Below are positions 46,199-56,240 of a stretch of 56,240 nucleotides of DNA, in pieces (the first letter of the stretch is position 1; every line of letters starts with the position of its first letter). The DNA comes from Neisseriaceae bacterium TC5R-5 (lineage in GTDB: Bacteria; Pseudomonadota; Gammaproteobacteria; Burkholderiales; Chromobacteriaceae): the NCBI GenBank assembly GCA_020830965.2, contig JACCFC020000022.1:1-56240 (forward strand), given 5' to 3'. The position numbers and the translations under genes were made by a program. The notes under the pieces were generated by a model. That model was given only the letters and a program-made list of their open reading frames with translations. It was not told the origin of the DNA and made no database searches.

Positions 46199-48543
<2,345 letters not shown>

Positions 48544-48564: not shown

Positions 48565-48592
48565 AAAAAAACCGCAAATTTGCGGTTTTTTT
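48565..48592. terminator. Bidirectional terminator after purB
   Basis: A perfect palindrome with AAAAAACCGCAAA and TTTGCGGTTTTTT. It isolates purB from the nitrogen operon that follows. Confidence 0.93.
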
Positions 48593-48635
48593 ATTGTCAA
48601 AATTTTTTGCGTTTTAAGCGAAAAATATTGTTCTT

Positions 48636-48719: not shown

Positions 48720-49382
48720 ATGAAGAATATTAAGGCAGAACCTTTTGATTTCTCTTTCAATCCGGCCACCAGTGCGCTCATTATTATTGATATGCAGCGC
48801 GATTTTGTTGAGCCAAATGGTTTTGGTGAGTTATTGGGTAATGATGTCGCGCTATTGCGTTCGACAATTGAACCCTGCCGTAAAGTATTACAGGCAGCCC
48901 GCGCTGCTGGTTTGATGGTAATTCATACGCGGGAAGGGCATCGGGCCGATTTGACCGATTGCCCGCCAGCCAAGTTGACCCGTGGCGGTAAAACGGTGAT
49001 TGGCAGCGCCGGGCCTATGGGGCGCATCCTGGTACGCGGAGAACAAGGCCACGATATTATTCCTGAGCTGTATCCGATTGCCGGTGAGCCGGTGATTGAT
49101 AAACCCGGTAAGGGCGCCTTCTATCAAACTGATCTACATTTGATTTTGCAAAGCCGTGGCATCAAGTCGCTGATTATCTGTGGTGTGACCACCGAGGTAT
49201 GCGTTAACACCACGGCGCGTGAGGCCAATGACCGTGGTTATGAATGTCTGATTCTCGATGATTGCACGGCTTCTTACTTCCCCGAATTCCACCAAGCGGC
49301 TCTCGATATGATCAAAGCCCAGGGCGGCATCGTTGGCTGGGTCTCTTCCTCTGCTGAGCTGGTGAGCACGCTAGCAAAATAA
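48720..49382 (+). CDS. Isochorismatase-family cysteine hydrolase, biuret hydrolase-like
   Basis: This 220-residue cytosolic amidohydrolase has the family triad at D24 (IIIDMQRDF), K131 (DKPGKGAF) and C161 (GVTTEVCVNTTAREANDRGYE), so it should be active. The segments VIHTREGHR, RGEQGHDIIPELYPI and AREANDRGYECLILDDC are close to what I remember of rhizobial biuret hydrolase, which makes allophanate and ammonia from biuret. N-carbamoylsarcosine and ureidoacrylate hydrolases are also relatives, and an oxamate or other ureide amidase is possible. It is the first gene of a tight operon; its stop overlaps the next ATG by one base. The hydrolase class is firm and the substrate is inferred. Confidence 0.82.
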   Translation: MKNIKAEPFDFSFNPATSALIIIDMQRDFVEPNGFGELLGNDVALLRSTIEPCRKVLQAARAAGLMVIHTREGHRADLTDCPPAKLTRGGKTVIGSAGPMGRILVRGEQGHDIIPELYPIAGEPVIDKPGKGAFYQTDLHLILQSRGIKSLIICGVTTEVCVNTTAREANDRGYECLILDDCTASYFPEFHQAALDMIKAQGGIVGWVSSSAELVSTLAK

Positions 49383-50236
49383 TGCACTACTTGGCTGGGC
49401 TGTCGCTTGGTTATGCGGTGCCTCGCAATATCGCCGGACAGGTACATAGTGTGTTTGATCGGGCCTGCAATATCCTCTTATCGGATGGTGCTTTATTCAG
49501 CCTGTTCAGCCGTCAGTTAGCCAATGCGCCGCTGGCGTTACGGCTGGATATTGCGGGTGGCCTGGAGGCCTGGTTTGTGCCCGGGCAGCCTTTTGTGCTG
49601 AGAAATGGCAGTTGGCGCAGCCCGCAGTGCCAGGGTAGTACGCATGCCTTGCCGATCTGGCAGCCTGAGCGTCAGCCGTCGCAACTTAGTCACGCTGCGT
49701 TGAGGCGTAATGTGCAGCAGGTGCAGCAAGCCTGGTGTGACTGGCAGCAGACACGCCCGCTGTTGGCGCTGCCAACTGTATTGCTGGCCTTATGCCAGCA
49801 GCTGCAGCAGGGGATTGCGCAGCAGGACACATCCGCCGTGTTGGCCTTCAGTGAACAACTACTAGGCTGGGGACAGGGTCTGACGCCTAGTGGGGATGAT
49901 GTGCTGGTGGCTTGCCTGGCCGTATTGTGGCGCTGGCGTGAACAGCAAGCGGTTGCCCGGCATTTACTGCACGCCTTACAGGCTAGCCTGCCAACCCAGT
50001 TGGCGCGAACCCATTCGATTAGCCAGCATTATTTGCGCCAGGCATTGGCCGGGCAGTTTAGTGAGCCCTTGGAGCAGTTGCTGGCGCAATTGCTGACGCA
50101 GACGGATGCAGTGGCTTTGCAGCAGGCTGTCGCGCAGATGCTGGCGCAGGGTGCCAGTTCCGGTGCCGATGGGTTGTATGGGGTATTACTGACTTTACAG
50201 GCGTTGTTGCCGCCTTTAGATGGAGAGAATGAATGA
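49382..50236 (+). CDS. allH: DUF2877 protein, AllH-like carbamoyltransferase subunit
   Basis: This 284-residue protein matches DUF2877 (PF11392), to which E. coli YlbF (AllH) belongs. AllH is assigned as one of three subunits of the oxamate carbamoyltransferase of anaerobic allantoin breakdown. The strongest landmark is GWGQGLTPSGDDVLVACLA near residue 160, with the preceding FVLRNG. It is rich in Gln, which is unusual next to the neighbouring housekeeping genes. It overlaps the hydrolase gene by one base and FdrA by four, so translation is coupled. Confidence 0.8.
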   Translation: MHYLAGLSLGYAVPRNIAGQVHSVFDRACNILLSDGALFSLFSRQLANAPLALRLDIAGGLEAWFVPGQPFVLRNGSWRSPQCQGSTHALPIWQPERQPSQLSHAALRRNVQQVQQAWCDWQQTRPLLALPTVLLALCQQLQQGIAQQDTSAVLAFSEQLLGWGQGLTPSGDDVLVACLAVLWRWREQQAVARHLLHALQASLPTQLARTHSISQHYLRQALAGQFSEPLEQLLAQLLTQTDAVALQQAVAQMLAQGASSGADGLYGVLLTLQALLPPLDGENE

Positions 50237-51789
50237 AACTGTATTGTAAAACCTACCCCAATTTATATAAGGACTCCGTCTCACTGATGCAGATTTCTGC
50301 CAGCCTGAACGGGGTAGCTGGTGTCAGCCAGGCATCAGTAGCCATGGCAACCGAGGCCAATATCGCACGCATGCACGATGCCGGTATGGCGGTAGCCGTG
50401 GCGGTTAAGCCGAATGATTTGCTGATTGCCTTGCTGGCGGGCGAGGCGAGCGCGGAAGAAGCGCTCGCCTTAGCCGATAGCTTGCTCAAACCTAGTCAGG
50501 ACAGCGCTGGTGAACAGCGTGAGCAGCGTGCTGCCAGCAGTATTGCGCAGGGAGTGGAGCGGATGCCAGCGGCGAATATGGCGCTGATTTCTGTACCCGG
50601 TAGCTATGCCGCAGCCGAAACAATGAAAGCGCTACGACTGGGACTGAACGTGATGCTATTTAGCGATAACGTCAGCGAAGAAAATGAAATTTCGCTGAAA
50701 AACTATGCCAGCCAGCAGGATTTGCTAGTGATGGGGCCAGATTGTGGCACGGCTATTGTCAATGGCTTGCCCTTAGGCTTTGCCAATGTGGTGCGCCGTG
50801 GGGCAATTGGTCTGGTGGCGGCCTCAGGCACTGGCTTACAGGAAGTGAGCTGCCGCATTCACCATTTAGGTGAGGGCGTCTCGCAGGCGCTGGGTACGGG
50901 CGGGCGCGATCTGCATGAGGGTATTGATGGCCAGAGCATGTGCCAGGCTTTGAAAATGCTGGCGGCCGATGCCGACACGAAATTGATTGTCTTGATTTCC
51001 AAGCCGCCAGCCGCCAGCGTGGCGAACAAAGTGCTGCGATTAGCCGCTAGTTGCGGCAAGCCAGTAGTCGTGCATTTTCTGGGTGCCAAGCCGGAAAGCC
51101 TGCGCGAATACGCGGTGACAGCCAGTTCCAGCCTGCAACATGCGGCGGATACCGCCGTTGCGCTATTACGGCACCAGCCACTACCGGTGGCGGTGGTGCC
51201 GGATGCTGCGCTGCTAGCACAAGCCCAGGCCAAGGCTCAGGGCATGGAGGCCAGTCAAACACAATTACGTGCCATTTTTGCCGGTGGTACTTTCTGTTAT
51301 GAAGCGCAACTGGCTTTGTTGCAGCAAGGGCTGTGCTGTGAGTCGAATGCGCCGGTACAAGGCGCGCAGCCTTTGCGTGATCCGGCGCACTGTCATGGTC
51401 ATAGCCTGCTGGATATGGGCGACGATGAGTTTACTCAAGGGCGCCCGCATCCGATGATTGATCCCACTTTGCGGAATGCGCGTCTGCTGCAAGAGGCTGC
51501 GGCTGCCGAGACCGCCGTTTTACTCTTTGACGTGGTACTGGGCTACGGCGCCAGCATGGACCCGGTAGCTGAGTTGCTGCAAGTATTGGCCAAGGCTAAT
51601 GCTGAGGCGGCACGACAGCAGCGGCAACTGCTTTATATCGCTCATGTCTGCGGTACCGAACTGGACCCGCAGTCACGCCAACAACAGGTACAAGCATTGC
51701 AACAGGCGGGGGTGATCGTCGCCGACAGCAATGTGCAGGCGGCACAATTGGCCGCCCAGATTATTCAGTCTCGCCAAGGGAGCCGTTAA
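50233..51789 (+). CDS. fdrA: FdrA family protein, AllF-like carbamoyltransferase subunit
   Basis: This 518-residue protein matches FdrA (AllF), built of succinyl-CoA-synthetase-like domains. In E. coli it is assigned to the oxamate carbamoyltransferase. Segments include YKDSVSLMQISASL, VAMATEANIARM, LLVMGPDCGTAI, GAIGLVAASGTGLQEVS, GTGGRDLH and GDDEFTQGRPHPMIDP. It is somewhat shorter than the E. coli protein of about 555 residues but has both halves. It shares ATGA with the gene before it and touches the next with no gap. Confidence 0.88.
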   Translation: MKLYCKTYPNLYKDSVSLMQISASLNGVAGVSQASVAMATEANIARMHDAGMAVAVAVKPNDLLIALLAGEASAEEALALADSLLKPSQDSAGEQREQRAASSIAQGVERMPAANMALISVPGSYAAAETMKALRLGLNVMLFSDNVSEENEISLKNYASQQDLLVMGPDCGTAIVNGLPLGFANVVRRGAIGLVAASGTGLQEVSCRIHHLGEGVSQALGTGGRDLHEGIDGQSMCQALKMLAADADTKLIVLISKPPAASVANKVLRLAASCGKPVVVHFLGAKPESLREYAVTASSSLQHAADTAVALLRHQPLPVAVVPDAALLAQAQAKAQGMEASQTQLRAIFAGGTFCYEAQLALLQQGLCCESNAPVQGAQPLRDPAHCHGHSLLDMGDDEFTQGRPHPMIDPTLRNARLLQEAAAAETAVLLFDVVLGYGASMDPVAELLQVLAKANAEAARQQRQLLYIAHVCGTELDPQSRQQQVQALQQAGVIVADSNVQAAQLAAQIIQSRQGSR

Positions 51790-53187
51790 ATGAACCCATT
51801 ATTCCAAGAAAAACTGCAAGTTATTGGCCTGGGTTTGGCTGGGTTTTCCGATAATTTGCGCCAGGCTGGCGGCGAAGTGCTGCAGCTGGAATGGGTGCCA
51901 CCGGCGCAGGGTGATGCCGCGGCGAATTGGCAGTTAGCCAATCTGTTTAACTGCCCGCAGATTGAGCAGGCTAATGAAACTGCGCTGCAGCGTTATCTGG
52001 ATGCGCAGCCGGTATTGGTGGGGATTGCCCCTGCTCATGAATTGATTCCGGCGATGGCCGAGGGGCAGCGTCGTATCCTGCATTCCGGGCCGCCGATTGC
52101 CTGGGCCGATATGTGTGGCCCGGTACAGGGGGCGATTGCCGGTGCCATCGTCTTTGAGGGCTGGGCTGATGATGTGAGCGCAGCGATGGCGCTGGCAGCA
52201 CAAGGTGGGATTGCCTTGGAACCCTGCCACCATTACGCCGCTACCGGGCCGATGGCGGGCATTATCAGCCCATCCATGCCCTTGTGGGTTGTCGAAAACC
52301 AGACCCATGGCAATCGTGCGTTTTGTAATCTGAATGAAGGGCTGGGCAAAGTATTGCGTTTTGGTGCCAATAGCCCTGAGGTACTCAATCGCTTGCGCTG
52401 GATGGGCGAGGTGCTGGCACCGACGATTGCTCAGGCCCTGGCCGTTTGCGGCGAGATTGCACTCAAGCCGCTGATGGCGCAGGCGTTGCAAATGGGTGAT
52501 GAGGTGCACAACCGCAATACTGCCGCGAGTGGCTTGTTCTTCAAACGCATTGCACCCGCTATTGCCGGCTTGCCGGACGCCGCCGCAGTACTGGAGTTCA
52601 TTGCTGCCAATGATCACTTTTTCCTGAATCTATCGATGGCGGCTTGTAAGGCCATGCTGGATGCGGCAGCAAATGTTCCCGGCAGTAGCATGGTGACTGT
52701 GATGGCGCGCAATGGGGTGAACTTTGGTATCCGCCTCAGTGGTACCGGTGAGCGTTGGTTCCAGGCGCCGGCTAATCCGGTGAACGGCTTGTTCTTCCCC
52801 GGCTACGGCGTGGAGGATGCGGCGGCTGACCTGGGTGACAGTGCCATTACCGAAACGGCCGGAGTCGGTGGTTTTGCCATGGCGGCGGCACCTGCCATTG
52901 TCAAATTCGTTGGCGGCACCCCGGCGGATGCGCTGAACTACAGCCGAGAAATGATGGAGATCACACTCACTCAGCACCCGGTTTTTACGCTGCCTAGCCT
53001 GAACTTTATGGGCTCCGGTTGTGGTATTGACGCTCGTAAAGTGGTGGATCGTGGCATTTTACCGGTGATCAATACCGGTATTGCGCACAAGCAAGCTGGG
53101 GTCGGTCAGATTGGGGCGGGCGTGACCACGGCCCCGCTGGCCTGTTTTATCGAAGCGCTGGCCGCGCTGGCAGACACCTTGGAGTAA
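51790..53187 (+). CDS. allG: DUF1116 protein, AllG-like carbamoyltransferase subunit
   Basis: This 465-residue protein matches DUF1116 (PF06545), the family of E. coli YlbE (AllG), third subunit of the assigned oxamate carbamoyltransferase. Landmarks are EWVPPAQGDAAA, HSGPPIAWADMCGPVQGA, GDEVHNRNTAAS, and the C-terminal MGSGCGIDARKVVDRGILPVINTGIAHK with the GAGVTTAP stretch. It follows fdrA with no gap and precedes the carbamate kinase by three bases, which supports a multi-subunit complex made in fixed ratio. Confidence 0.87.
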   Translation: MNPLFQEKLQVIGLGLAGFSDNLRQAGGEVLQLEWVPPAQGDAAANWQLANLFNCPQIEQANETALQRYLDAQPVLVGIAPAHELIPAMAEGQRRILHSGPPIAWADMCGPVQGAIAGAIVFEGWADDVSAAMALAAQGGIALEPCHHYAATGPMAGIISPSMPLWVVENQTHGNRAFCNLNEGLGKVLRFGANSPEVLNRLRWMGEVLAPTIAQALAVCGEIALKPLMAQALQMGDEVHNRNTAASGLFFKRIAPAIAGLPDAAAVLEFIAANDHFFLNLSMAACKAMLDAAANVPGSSMVTVMARNGVNFGIRLSGTGERWFQAPANPVNGLFFPGYGVEDAAADLGDSAITETAGVGGFAMAAAPAIVKFVGGTPADALNYSREMMEITLTQHPVFTLPSLNFMGSGCGIDARKVVDRGILPVINTGIAHKQAGVGQIGAGVTTAPLACFIEALAALADTLE

Positions 53188-53190
53188 GGC

Positions 53191-54153
53191 ATGACTAAAG
53201 CAAAATTGGCGGTGGTGGCGGTGGGGGGGAATGCCCTGATTCGTTCCGATCAGGAAACTAGCCTGGCCCAGCAGTATGCAGCGGTGGCAGAAACCGCCAA
53301 ACATGTGGCGGAACTGATTGCCGCCGGCTGGAAAGTGGTACTCACCCATGGTAATGGCCCGCAAGTCGGTTTTATTCTGCGCCGCTCGGAAATTGCCGAA
53401 AACGAAGTGCCAACCGTTTCGCTTCCCTTTGCGGTGGGGGATACCCAGGGCGCCATTGGTTTTATGTTCCAGAACGCCTTTGGTAATACTTTGCGTCAGC
53501 GTGGCCTGACTACCCAGGTGGTTGCGCTGGTCACACAAACTTTAGTAGCGGCTGGCGATAGCGCTTTTAGCCATCCGGATAAACCGATAGGCGCGCATCT
53601 GCCGCAAGCGCAGGCCGAAGAGCTGGCGCAACAGTTGGGCTGGGTGGTACGCGAAGACGCTGGCCGTGGCTGGCGACGGGTGGTGCCGTCACCGCGACCG
53701 CTACAAATTATCGAGGCTCCGATTATTCGCCAATTGCTGGACAGCGGCGTGCTGGTGGTGGCCTGCGGCGGTGGCGGGATTCCGGTGGTGCGGCAGGCGG
53801 ATGGTAGTCTGGATAGCGTGGATGCGGTGATCGATAAAGATCGTGCCTCGGCCCTGCTTGCTGCCGAACTGGGGGCCGATATGCTGCTGATCCCCACTGG
53901 CGTAGAGCGGGTGGCCCTACACTTTGGTACACCACAGCAGCGCTGGTTGGATCAGCTCTCGGCGCAAGAAGCGCAACAATTACTGCAAGATGGCCATTTC
54001 GGTGCGGGCAGCATGGGGCCGAAAGTGGAGGCCATGCTCAGTTACCTGGCCAAATGTCCGCATGGTATCGGTCTGATTACTTCGCCAGAAGCGATAGGCC
54101 GCGCCATCAAGGGTGAAGCAGGGACTCGTTTTAGTCATCCGATCGCCGTCTAA
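53191..54153 (+). CDS. allK: Carbamate kinase (catabolic)
   Basis: This 320-residue kinase transfers phosphate from carbamoyl phosphate to ADP, leaving carbamate that decays to ammonia and CO2. Landmarks are AVGGNALIR, LTHGNGPQVGF, VVACGGGGIPVV, AVIDKDRASALLA and GSMGPKVEA. The arcA/arcB deiminase genes are absent. It sits with carbamoyltransferase subunits, as does E. coli AllK (YbcF), so its source of carbamoyl phosphate is the upstream complex. It is full length. Confidence 0.93.
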   Translation: MTKAKLAVVAVGGNALIRSDQETSLAQQYAAVAETAKHVAELIAAGWKVVLTHGNGPQVGFILRRSEIAENEVPTVSLPFAVGDTQGAIGFMFQNAFGNTLRQRGLTTQVVALVTQTLVAAGDSAFSHPDKPIGAHLPQAQAEELAQQLGWVVREDAGRGWRRVVPSPRPLQIIEAPIIRQLLDSGVLVVACGGGGIPVVRQADGSLDSVDAVIDKDRASALLAAELGADMLLIPTGVERVALHFGTPQQRWLDQLSAQEAQQLLQDGHFGAGSMGPKVEAMLSYLAKCPHGIGLITSPEAIGRAIKGEAGTRFSHPIAV

Positions 54154-54170
54154 CTAAGTAAGGAACCATC

Positions 54171-54587
54171 ATGAGTGAAGCAACAGTATTACTGGCGGTA
54201 AATGGCACGCTAATGCGTGGCCTAGAACTCAATCCCAATATGCTGGCGGTGGGTGCCGAGTTTGTTGCTGAGGCCAATACCGCAGGCTGTTACCGTATCT
54301 GGTCGATTAATGACCGCCACCCGGCAATGATGCGTACCCCCGATGAAGGTAGCAAAGTTGCGCTGGAGCTGTGGCAGGTACCCGCTGCCGGTTTGGCACA
54401 GATTCTGCAGAATGAGCCGGCTGGCCTGAGCATAGGCAAAGTGTTGCTGGACGATGGCCGCGAAGTGCTGGGGGTATTGGGCGAGCCGTTTCTGTGTGCC
54501 AATCGCACCGAAATTACCGCGCTGGGCGGCTGGCGTGCTTATCGGCAATCCCGAGGACTGAATCCGGATAGCGGGAAGGAGGCTTGA
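54171..54587 (+). CDS. Stand-alone allophanate hydrolase C-terminal-like domain protein
   Basis: This 138-residue protein resembles the C-terminal domain of allophanate hydrolase (AtzF/DUR1 type), which has a gamma-glutamylcyclotransferase-like fold. VNGTLMRGLELNPNM at the start, then YRIWSINDRHPAMMR, LELWQVPAAGLAQIL and GREVLGVLGEPF, are the recognisable parts. In the full enzyme the amidase half makes N-carboxycarbamate and this domain has been reported to help its decarboxylation. No amidase half is encoded in the window. It may act on a carbamate or ureido intermediate of this operon. AAGGAACC stands before the start. Confidence 0.72.
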   Translation: MSEATVLLAVNGTLMRGLELNPNMLAVGAEFVAEANTAGCYRIWSINDRHPAMMRTPDEGSKVALELWQVPAAGLAQILQNEPAGLSIGKVLLDDGREVLGVLGEPFLCANRTEITALGGWRAYRQSRGLNPDSGKEA

Positions 54588-54588
54588 T

Positions 54589-55818
54589 ATGGCCCGTGTC
54601 GTCGCAAGCTCGACTACTGCTCCCGGCTGGCGTATCGCGCTAATTGTGCTGGGTATTGCCATGACCCCGGTGTTGTTGGCTTCTTCCAGTCTGGGCAGCC
54701 GCCTGGCGCTGGCTGATGCGATACAGGCGATTCTGCTGGGCTCGCTTATCCTGGCGGCTATTGCTTGTGTTACCTGCAGCATCGGCACACAAGCACGCAT
54801 GAATACCTATCAACTGGTGCGCTTTGCCTTTGGTGTACAAGGCGCCAGGGCGATAAATGCTCTGCTGGCCGTTAGTTTATTAGGCTGGATTTGCGTGACG
54901 GCCAATGGCTTTGGTATCGCTTTGCGTGATTTGCTGGCCTACAACGGCATTCACCTGCCGCTATTGCTGCTGGTCAGCCTGGGCTGCGTTATCTTTGTCG
55001 GGGCTACTGCTTTTGGTTTTGAGGTGCTCAGCAAAGTGGCCTTGTATGCGATACCGGTGATCTCCTTGCTCTTGCTGTACAACCTGTCGCAAGTGAATGT
55101 CAACGTGACGCGCCCACCGCTAGTGCCCGGCCAGGGGATGAGCATGGGTGTCGCCATCTCTACCGTCGTCGGTACCTTCATGGTGCTGGTGGCCACCCTG
55201 CCGGACTTTGGCTCGTTTGTGCACAATAAGCGGCAAGCGGTGATTGGTGCCCTGCTGGCATTGGCACTGGCTTACCCCTTGCTTTATATCGCCGGGGCGA
55301 TTCCTGCCACACTCACTGGCAAAGCCTCGCTAATTGAGGCAATGACGGTGTTTAACAGCGTGATTCCGGCTTTATTGCTGATGCTGTTTGCTACGGTAAC
55401 CGGTAATGCCGGCAATATGTTTCAAGGCACGCTGGTTACATCCACCTTGCTGCCAGAGCTACGCAAGCCGCTTATCACCGTCTTGCTGGGCATCGTTGCC
55501 GCTATTATTGGCAGCAGCAATGTCACCAGCTGGTTTATCCCCTTCCTGCTGTTCCTAGGTATTACCACGCCACCGGTAGCCGGTATTTATATTGCCGATT
55601 TTGTCCTTCATCGCCGTGCTGGCTACGATGAAGCGCATTTGGAGCAGGTGCCAGCGGTGCGGATAACTGCCTTTATCGCCTGGCTGCTGGCGTCGCTTTT
55701 GGGTGGCTTAAGCTCGCGTGGCATGCTCACGCTGACATCTATCCCATCGCTGGATGCCTTGCTGCTGGCCGCGGCGCTGTATGCTTTGCTGGATAGCTTA
55801 TTAACTAATAAAGGTTAG
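54589..55818 (+). CDS. NCS1-family permease (cytosine/allantoin type)
   Basis: This 409-residue membrane protein has about 12 transmembrane segments and resembles CodB-like NCS1 transporters, which import nucleobases, hydantoins or allantoin with protons or sodium. Visible pieces are a first membrane span with IALIVLGIAMTPVLL, the LVRFAFGVQGARAINALLAV region and GWICVTANGFGIAL, typical of substrate-facing helices 1, 2 and 3. As the last gene, one base after the AtzF-like gene, it is the likely importer of the operon's substrate. The substrate cannot be assigned from sequence. Confidence 0.82.
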   Translation: MARVVASSTTAPGWRIALIVLGIAMTPVLLASSSLGSRLALADAIQAILLGSLILAAIACVTCSIGTQARMNTYQLVRFAFGVQGARAINALLAVSLLGWICVTANGFGIALRDLLAYNGIHLPLLLLVSLGCVIFVGATAFGFEVLSKVALYAIPVISLLLLYNLSQVNVNVTRPPLVPGQGMSMGVAISTVVGTFMVLVATLPDFGSFVHNKRQAVIGALLALALAYPLLYIAGAIPATLTGKASLIEAMTVFNSVIPALLLMLFATVTGNAGNMFQGTLVTSTLLPELRKPLITVLLGIVAAIIGSSNVTSWFIPFLLFLGITTPPVAGIYIADFVLHRRAGYDEAHLEQVPAVRITAFIAWLLASLLGGLSSRGMLTLTSIPSLDALLLAAALYALLDSLLTNKG

Positions 55819-55835: not shown

Positions 55836-55874
55836 TGCCGCTCACGGACTCATTGTTGCGGCCGGTGAGCGGCA
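55836..55874. terminator. Hairpin at the end of the carbamoyl-compound operon
   Basis: TGCCGCTCAC pairs perfectly with GTGAGCGGCA around a 19-base loop, 18 bases after the permease stop. There is no clear T-run, so Rho-independent termination is uncertain. It lies between two converging genes. Confidence 0.5.
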
Positions 55875-55878
55875 TTGA

Positions 55879-56120
55879 TCAGTTGGGTGACTGTTGCGCA
55901 GGTTCGACGGATAGCCGCATACCAACGGTGTTCAAGACCGCCAATAGCGTTTTAAGTGTTGGGTTGCCTGTGGGTGAGAGTGTACGGTACAGCGTCTCGC
56001 GGCTGATGCCAGCCCGTGTTGCTACCTGCTATAGCCCGCCGTAGGCTTCCGCTATAGTACGTAGCGCTCATCCGGGTTGTCGAGCGATTCCATTGCCGCT
56101 TTCAGATATTCAACCGCTAA
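55879..56120 (-). pseudogene. Decayed Xre-type antitoxin gene cut by an insertion sequence
   Basis: Read on the minus strand, this encodes AVEYLKAAMESLDNPDE, then after a frameshift (about 56062-56068) LRTIAEAYGGL, an in-frame TAG (56029-56031), and QVATRAGISRETLYRTLSP, ending in VGMRLSVEPAQQSPN before TGA at 55879. This matches small helix-turn-helix addiction-module antitoxins (COG3636/HigA-like). The 5' end is removed by the insertion sequence at 56121. Three independent lesions show that it is dead. No toxin gene remains in the window. Confidence 0.78.
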
Positions 56121-56240
56121 GAGCCTGTTCACGATTCCTAAATGCTGGAAAATAAGGAGATGCGAACAACAAAATATCCAAGCGACATCAGTCCAGAACA
56201 ATTTGAACAAATTCGTCCTCTGCTGGAGAGTGTGCGCAAG
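56121..56240 (+). mobile_element. IS5-family insertion sequence, left end (partial)
   Basis: The element appears to begin with GAGCCTGTTCACGATTCCT, a typical terminal inverted repeat, directly at the break in the antitoxin gene. The bases before it, CTAA (56117-56120), fit the YTAR target of IS5-type elements. The right end lies outside the window, so the target duplication and inverted repeat cannot be confirmed. Confidence 0.75.
56160..56240 (+). CDS. IS5-family transposase, N-terminus (partial)
   Basis: The first 27 codons read MRTTKYPSDISPEQFEQI then RPLLESVRK. This matches the start of IS5-family DDE transposases that continue with KPRTVDLYE in relatives. AAGGAG lies directly upstream of the ATG. 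The rest is beyond the window, so it cannot be judged whether the transposase is intact. Confidence 0.82.
   Translation, partial: MRTTKYPSDISPEQFEQIRPLLESVRK

Follow-up and report, generated by a model that had tools for sequence, protein, structure and literature searches.

A putative triuret-utilization operon that pairs a TrtA-type hydrolase with an AllFGH-type carbamoyltransferase

Results

Gene content of the operon

We analyzed a 56,240-nt contig of Neisseriaceae bacterium TC5R-5, JACCFC020000022.1 (the whole of which is called the window below), and in it the operon at positions 48720-55818 of the + strand. The operon consists of seven same-strand open reading frames (ORFs) with gaps of -1, -4, 0, 3, 17, and 1 bases; the first-pass annotation of this DNA had described a seven-gene operon with these ends, this order, and gaps from -4 to +17, all of which were confirmed. 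The first gene (48720-49382, +) encodes a TrtA-like cysteine hydrolase of the isochorismatase-like type (Pfam Isochorismatase), a putative triuret hydrolase. The next three genes, also on the + strand, encode carbamoyltransferase subunits, namely an AllH-like protein (49382-50236; Pfam AllH PF11392, 84.8 bits with a cut-off of 25), an AllF/FdrA-like protein (50233-51789; Pfam Ligase_CoA/CoA_binding, and NCBIfam FdrA NF004760 with 476.9 bits and a cut-off of 433), and an AllG-like protein, the former DUF1116 (51790-53187; Pfam AllG, 320.6 bits), which falls into a TrtA-linked group. They are followed, again on the + strand, by the genes for a carbamate kinase (53191-54153; Pfam AA_kinase, and NCBIfam NF009007 with 366.4 bits and a cut-off of 266), a stand-alone AH_C protein of 138 aa (54171-54587; Pfam AH_C, 132.3 bits), which may be a carboxybiuret decarboxylase, and an NCS1-family, CodB-like permease (54589-55818; Pfam Transp_cyt_pur, 66.7 bits), which may import triuret. 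The full operon with the same gene order was seen in the three Escherichia coli records that were opened around a match, the only ones checked in this way, indicating that the arrangement is not due to chance.

Triuret is a nitrogen-rich waste compound derived from uric acid, and it also occurs in urea fertilizer; it has been found in human urine. We consider it probable, from sequence comparisons, that the operon serves triuret utilization, and that the AllFGH-type carbamoyltransferase replaces the usual BiuH and AtzF hydrolases in this process and conserves energy.

The hydrolase is of the triuret hydrolase type

By its residues and its phylogenetic position, the window hydrolase is of the triuret-hydrolase (TrtA) type rather than a biuret hydrolase. 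Its closest solved relative in a PDB search was TrtA 6xix (6e-83), while RutB reached 3.8e-30. The 6xix protein is the Herbaspirillum TrtA, which converts triuret into carboxybiuret, a compound with a half-life of about 20 min when no decarboxylase acts on it, and among the substrates given in the relevant part of that study, none besides triuret exceeded 0.5% of the triuret activity (PMC7948467). The published preference of TrtA for triuret over biuret amounts to four orders of magnitude. The residues described there as differing between TrtA and BiuH are F35/Y, N41/Y, E160/D, Y187/T, I205/V, and A134/S, around Q202 (PMC7948467). The window hydrolase agrees with TrtA at 14 of 14 checked positions. 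The IHL triad is present (D24, K129, and C162 in TrtA numbering), and all six discriminating residues are of the TrtA type (F35, N41, E160, Y187, Q202, and I205), with F/N/E/Y/I where BiuH has Y/Y/D/T/V.

In a tree of 102 hydrolase rows, the 20 BiuH-type rows were split with 100/100 from the 82 others, including 6xix and the window hydrolase. Furthermore, the window hydrolase scored 283.5 bits with the NCBIfam equivalog model for BiuH, under its cut-off of 370. We thus rejected an identity as biuret hydrolase on the grounds of the score below the BiuH cut-off, the different residues, and the position on the opposite side of the tree. The first-pass annotation had started from a biuret-type hydrolase that makes allophanate from biuret; the residues and the tree place are instead those of TrtA, so that the tree puts the enzyme into another well-characterized class, that of triuret, an outcome which the first-pass annotation had itself named as speaking against its proposal and which here goes against the biuret premise, and an action on oxamate, also envisaged there, is not supported. 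A route of this kind, in which allophanate made from biuret would then react with phosphate to give carbamoyl phosphate and carbamate, could draw on the membership of the hydrolase in the BiuH/TrtA family, with its 283.5 bits on the BiuH model, but the six TrtA-type residues, the tree placement, and the score under the cut-off all argue against it, and no clear job would be left for the AH_C protein. We therefore regard it as quite improbable.

Pyrimidine degradation of the Rut type, as proposed for the copy of extraintestinal pathogenic E. coli (ExPEC), would be in line with the RutB-family similarity of the hydrolase and the CodB-like permease (PMC12928451). However, the window hydrolase reached only 120.1 bits with the RutB model TIGR03614, against a cut-off of 377.95, TrtA ranked far above RutB in the PDB search, and none of the seven operon genes matched RutA or a pyrimidine ring-opening family in Pfam or NCBIfam. 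This reading, which was set aside on the RutB model score, is extremely improbable.

For comparison of gene neighborhoods, we scanned one genome per species, which gave 588 relatives of the window hydrolase, and used the 80 that matched best; since these loci were chosen as the best matches to the window hydrolase, the sample leans to its own type. AllF or AllG is encoded in 41 of the 80 TrtA loci, and the six discriminating TrtA residues were found in 40 of these 41. In the hydrolase tree, 34 of the 43 rows from AllF/G loci and the window form one starred group (98/88). The exception among the 41 has a broken frame, and its readable part shows four of the six residues. At this locus (L053:10001-10651), the trtA of Caballeronia udeis contains an in-frame stop, and the adjacent kinase gene is split in two in a mechanical ORF listing.

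The transferase subunits form a TrtA-linked group

All three subunits of an AllFGH-type enzyme were thus recognized by their family models. The window AllG is 52.2% identical to E. coli AllG, and the window AllF shares 44.5% identity with AllF of E. coli K-12 and 54.8% with the TrtA-linked copy of E. coli LR-28. For E. coli AllFGH, the reaction of oxalurate and phosphate to carbamoyl phosphate and oxamate has been assigned, with kinetics obtained with carbamoyl phosphate and oxamate (PMC11326118). The operon shares with E. coli AllFGH and AllK the combination of a three-subunit transferase and a carbamate kinase (PMC11326118), but differs in its separate AllG group, the lack of AllC/D/E alongside, the TrtA-type upstream enzyme, and the presumed substrate, a polyurea instead of oxalurate.

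In the AllG tree (66 rows, with a root that is drawn only), 39 TrtA-linked rows including the window form a starred group (99/97), which is free of AllCDE- and YahJ-linked rows. The window AllG did not group with E. coli AllG or K-12 YahG, both of which lie in other starred groups of this tree. When a 398-genome Pseudomonadota sample was searched, 18 AllG places over the cut-off were found outside the TC5R-5 genome, five with TrtA and five with YahJ; one lies with AllC/D/E, one belongs to another AllF/G and kinase set, four are without AllF, and two are of the oxamate type by score, with AllC/D/E not in the stretch. The YahJ-linked arrangement is seen in E. coli K-12, where AllHFG-like subunits and a carbamate kinase are clustered, as in the operon, in yahE-yahF-yahG-yahI-yahJ (L091:5926-12508); this third context of AllFGH and kinase is linked to the amidohydrolase-family protein YahJ, not to TrtA, and its AllG belongs to a separate group. 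Positions conserved in at least 95% of the rows within each type (TrtA-linked, oxamate-type, and Yah) were counted as fixed. By this measure, 105 positions of AllG and 90 of AllF are common to all three types, while TrtA-linked and oxamate-type proteins show 35 fixed differences in AllG and 23 in AllF. Across 32 loci, TrtA distances correlated with those of AllG (0.84), AllF (0.88), and the kinase (0.84), and 0 of 2000 permutations were as high.

An oxalurate pathway, in which AllFGH would act as in E. coli on oxalurate to give oxamate and carbamoyl phosphate and the substrate of the hydrolase would be oxamate or a different ureide, would suit the homology of AllF, AllG, and AllH to the proven oxamic transcarbamylase, and it is the published choice for similar loci (PMC12625717, PMC12928451). 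Against it stand the position of the window AllG outside the E. coli AllG group and the TrtA residue set of the hydrolase, as the tested TrtA showed at most 0.5% activity on other substrates (PMC7948467). In addition, AllD had no match in the TC5R-5 genome at E 1e-3, nor did any allantoinase there exceed the cut-off. The oxalurate reading was set aside on the AllG placement and on these AllD and allantoinase results, and we judge it unlikely. Urease alpha was likewise not found in the TC5R-5 genome. The part of the first-pass annotation in which the transcarbamoylase acts on a compound other than oxalurate appears probable from this context.

The AH_C protein is tied to TrtA and to the kinase

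Unlike AtzF, which combines an amidase and an AH_C domain, the 138-aa window protein has AH_C alone. It matched PDB 5c5z (1.1e-42), which was deposited under the name "Glutamyl-tRNA amidotransferase" and is identical over 129 of 129 residues to the AH_C protein of E. coli LR-28; we take this to be protein c4763 of a uropathogenic strain. No dedicated paper on c4763 or on the mechanism of the AH_C domain was found by title in our literature search.

Among the neighborhoods, one locus (L101) has AH_C joined to the N-terminus of TrtA, and in ten others AH_C forms the C-terminal part of a fusion with carbamate kinase (L021, L022, L025, L026, L031, L042, L044, L073, L103, and L109); as L103 agrees with L026 in its coordinates and has an identical AllG, the ten kinase-fusion loci represent nine distinct sequences. 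A same-strand AH_C gene abuts trtA in L015, L016, L017, L054, L062, L081, and L082, the last two of which have AH_C and TrtA followed by a BiuH-type gene, and the two genes are arranged tail to tail in L066. Three loci that lack AllF/G (L059, L063, and L078) have AH_C close to TrtA and a BiuH-type gene. The reading of AH_C as a remnant of a decayed AtzF was set aside, since in AllF/G loci AH_C keeps turning up either on its own or in fusions with the kinase or TrtA, and since the subfamily has near-invariant positions of its own (N11, T13, L14, M15, R16, N23, and D48).

In the Pseudomonadota sample, AH_C was found at 81 places. The five with at least 142 bits lie in four genomes (TC5R-5, G298, G307, and G370), every one with a TrtA-linked AllG, and the sixth, with 79 bits, is the TrtA-fused copy (L101) of G304, a fifth genome with a TrtA-linked AllG. 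Of the remaining 75 places, 71 are in ORFs of at least 597 aa, the size of AtzF, and the exceptions are ORFs of 467, 305, 168, and 143 aa. The fusions and this distribution suggest that TrtA, AH_C, and the kinase belong to a single pathway, in which AH_C would act on the TrtA product.

AllF/G and the BiuH/AtzF hydrolases tend not to occur together

A BiuH-type hydrolase or AtzF was found nearby in 4 of the 41 loci with AllF/G, in contrast to 22 of the 39 without (p 1e-5). Conversely, the loci with AllF/G carry carbamate kinase (35/41 versus 2/39), AH_C (35/41 versus 4/39; counted in ORFs below 480 aa, so that the longer fused proteins of L021 and L026 are uncounted), AllH (22/41 versus 0/39; counted only above 60 bits, with weak AllH genes such as that of L008 missed), and an NCS1 gene (20/41 versus 0/39). 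Genome-wide searches covered 49 genomes of the 80, isolates first and then selected metagenome-assembled genomes, 31 with AllF/G and 18 without. BiuH over the cut-off was present in 4 of the 31 and 9 of the 18 (p 0.007), the latter count leaving out four BiuH-like matches of 306-319 bits and one split match, all below the cut-off. AtzF was present in 7 of the 31, where a split AtzF (483 + 212 bits) in one genome is uncounted, and in 14 of the 18 (p 0.0003), and urease alpha in 17 of the 31 and all of the 18 (p 0.0006). As the genomes are related, these tests overstate independence. BiuH, AtzF, and urease were all absent over the cut-offs in 10 of the 31 AllF/G genomes, which would suit the full nitrogen recovery of the biuret route considered above.

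The TC5R-5 genome itself contains no second hydrolase of TrtA/BiuH grade, the next best match to the TrtA query having 47 bits. The sole AH_C match at a threshold of E 1e-8 is that of the operon, and two amidase-family ORFs, one of them beside an MdcG-like ORF, do not overlap it. With no AH_C match outside the operon, there is no sign of AtzF. The canonical TrtA-BiuH-AtzF pathway was thus not found in this genome by the TrtA query and the AH_C and amidase searches, the BiuH and AtzF models themselves not having been run on it.

Another conceivable arrangement is that of two separate nitrogen-salvage pathways on one transcript, in which TrtA would lead to biuret as a dead end and AllFGHK would serve another ureide. 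AllFGH-kinase modules are indeed also found with AllCDE or YahJ, and mixed loci with BiuH occur; on the other hand, the fusions of AH_C with TrtA (one genome) and with carbamate kinase (several others), the anti-association with BiuH/AtzF, and the correlation of TrtA distances with those of AllF, AllG, and the kinase speak against this arrangement, and we hold two pathways to be unlikely.

Discussion

In the triuret pathway that we propose, triuret would be taken up by the NCS1 permease, and TrtA, judged by its residues and tree place, would strip one terminal NH3 from it to give carboxybiuret. The stand-alone AH_C protein would decarboxylate carboxybiuret to biuret, a step suggested by the domain family, the fusion or adjacency to TrtA, and the occurrence together with TrtA and BiuH in loci that lack AllF/G. 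The AllF-AllG-AllH complex would then convert biuret and phosphate into carbamoyl phosphate and urea, by analogy with the phosphorolysis of oxalurate, and carbamate kinase would convert carbamoyl phosphate and ADP into ATP, NH3, and CO2. The net reaction would be triuret + H2O + ADP + Pi to urea + 2 NH3 + 2 CO2 + ATP. Oxalurate, biuret, and carboxybiuret have an H2N-CO-NH-CO group in common, of which allophanate is the carboxylate counterpart. In one variant, the transferase would take carboxybiuret to allophanate, which AH_C would decarboxylate to urea with an unchanged net reaction; in another, the transferase would also take allophanate, giving 2 ATP and all four nitrogen atoms. Within this explanation, our subjective estimate by analogy gives biuret an even chance of being the transferase substrate, whereas carboxybiuret is a less probable candidate and the inclusion of allophanate is rather doubtful. 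Carboxybiuret and allophanate also convert non-enzymatically, to biuret and urea, respectively (PMC6219798). The idea in the first-pass annotation of a phosphorolysis of a ureide to carbamoyl phosphate that yields ATP is therefore kept, by context, while its biuret hydrolase premise is not; the main substrate differs, with allophanate as a possible later one.

More speculatively, and with little confidence on our part, the operon may support a "fermentation" of polyureas, in which its carriers, including more than one quarter of the complete E. coli genomes, would take up triuret from uric acid oxidation and break it down with no need for urease or oxygen; the AllFGH-type enzyme would phosphorolyse carboxybiuret and then allophanate, yielding 2 ATP and four nitrogen atoms per triuret as an anaerobic source of energy and nitrogen. 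If the proposed pathway is true, AllFGHK would be a plug-in module that converts different ureides (oxalurate, triuret, and the compound of the YahJ cluster) into ATP, and there would be a function for the solved structure 5c5z and for genes annotated as fdrA, DUF1116, and DUF2877.

Like the published triuret pathway of Herbaspirillum and Rhizobium (TrtA, TrtB, BiuH, and AtzF; PMC7948467), the operon has TrtA first, with the same catalytic and discriminating residues and carboxybiuret as the presumed intermediate, but in place of BiuH and AtzF it has an AllFGH-like transferase, a kinase, and a stand-alone AH_C protein, with a predicted ATP yield. In a stretch of Rhizobium plasmid pR132505 (L114:4665-10015), we observed in a row genes for a CN-hydrolase annotated as formamidase, a second isochorismatase-type hydrolase, atzD, an ABC ATPase, a TrtA-like hydrolase, and a cupin-domain protein; the cupin or the CN-hydrolase could be a candidate for the published decarboxylase TrtB. 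The co-location of these genes (in comammox) and a matching gene set (in ExPEC) are known already, under other readings. In comammox contigs, trtA, biuH, and atzF lie near allFGHK, as triuret and AllFGHK genes do in the operon, and AllFGHK was read as a separate pathway of oxalurate degradation (PMC12625717). The genomic region GR29 of ExPEC strain BEN2908 contains CodB-like, kinase, DUF1116, FdrA, and RutB-like genes that match the operon of other E. coli; the passages of that report on the region read them as pyrimidine/oxalurate metabolism and make no triuret assignment (PMC12928451). The K-12 genes fdrA and ylbE are merely listed among regulated genes in the relevant part of another study (PMC7439467). 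AllFGH as a step of triuret breakdown was not found in the literature searched, a search outside which most subscription papers lie.

Several observations weigh against the triuret pathway with AllFGH as replacement. In the trees, 9 of the 43 hydrolase rows from AllF/G loci fall outside the group of 34, and 13 of the 52 TrtA-linked AllG rows fall outside the 39, so that the latter do not form one group; both trees carry long-branch warnings, and 6xix is itself a long branch. The Yah type shares 17 of the 35 AllG and 14 of the 23 AllF fixed differences, which are thus not marks of triuret. The decarboxylase role of AH_C is uncertain, since aligned position 14 is His in seven of seven AtzF C-domains but Leu in the window protein, and Leu also in all 40 of the stand-alone or kinase-fused rows that have a residue at this position, and the genome G157 has a 168-aa AH_C ORF (62 bits) without an AllG match. 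Neither BiuH nor AtzF was seen in the stretch read for 17 of the 39 loci without AllF/G. Mixed loci with AllF/G and a BiuH-type hydrolase (L033, L045, L081, and L082) and three Anaerolineae genomes with AllF/G and BiuH over the cut-off indicate that replacement is not strict, and in comammox, where trtA, biuH, and atzF are accompanied by allFGHK, replacement cannot be the reason for its presence (PMC12625717). In L118-L120, from the family of the window organism, trtA-allH lies some kb from allF-allG, which is on the other strand, and the kinase and AH_C were not seen in the fetched stretch. A strict exclusion between AllF/G and BiuH was ruled out by the four mixed loci among the 80 and by BiuH in 4 of the 31 AllF/G genomes.

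One mixed locus, on a betaproteobacterial contig (L033), encodes a 6xix-like TrtA and a BiuH-type protein and, a short distance away, another TrtA accompanied by AllH-AllF-AllG and an AH_C gene on the opposite strand. In L118, a LysR gene and two unnamed permease-like genes lie between trtA-allH and allF-allG.

Distribution, origin, and surroundings of the operon

A trtA-like gene was found in 1544 of 5426 complete E. coli genomes (at least 80% coverage), and 124 of the 1613 E. coli trtA places are on plasmids; the same gene set occurs in some gut and urinary E. coli. On the conjugative IncF plasmid pCys-1 of E. coli (L116), one of the three E. coli records mentioned above, the seven-gene operon was seen together with a LysR gene.

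The G+C content of the operon is 57.0%, in contrast to 49.3% for window bases 1-48543. A search of 18 genomes of the same genus gave no hydrolase of TrtA grade (best E 2e-17), while such a hydrolase is present (360-366 bits) in three out of the four genomes from one further genus of the family. The closest AllG rows in the tree are from Aeromonas and Atlantibacter. This G+C contrast, the patchy occurrence of TrtA in the family, and the nearest AllG rows suggest that the operon was acquired horizontally.

Upstream, a hairpin with a T run was seen by eye at 48565-48595, after the end of the upstream gene at 48543 and before the operon, although a scan did not list it; it is likely a terminator separating the upstream gene from the operon. 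Downstream, at 55860-56240, inspection by eye showed what resembles the remnant of a regulator gene and, where the contig ends, the beginning of an apparent insertion-sequence transposase. As the contig ends in this apparent transposase, a downstream LysR gene, as in E. coli, could be cut off.

A contig assigned to "Chryseobacterium" (L014) carries an enterobacterial-like operon, with its AllG within a group of Enterobacterales rows, and is probably a foreign contig in its assembly. Finally, a permease-like family of about 530 aa, usually adjoining trtA, was observed in 30 of the 80 TrtA loci (7 of the 41 with AllF/G and 23 of the 39 without), with members at L012:15106-16704, L049:10722-12305, L118:11146-12741, and L118:12826-14385. 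No match was obtained for three members against Pfam-A or for four against NCBIfam. The three members that were counted have 10-13 hydrophobic segments, and the family is a candidate triuret transporter.

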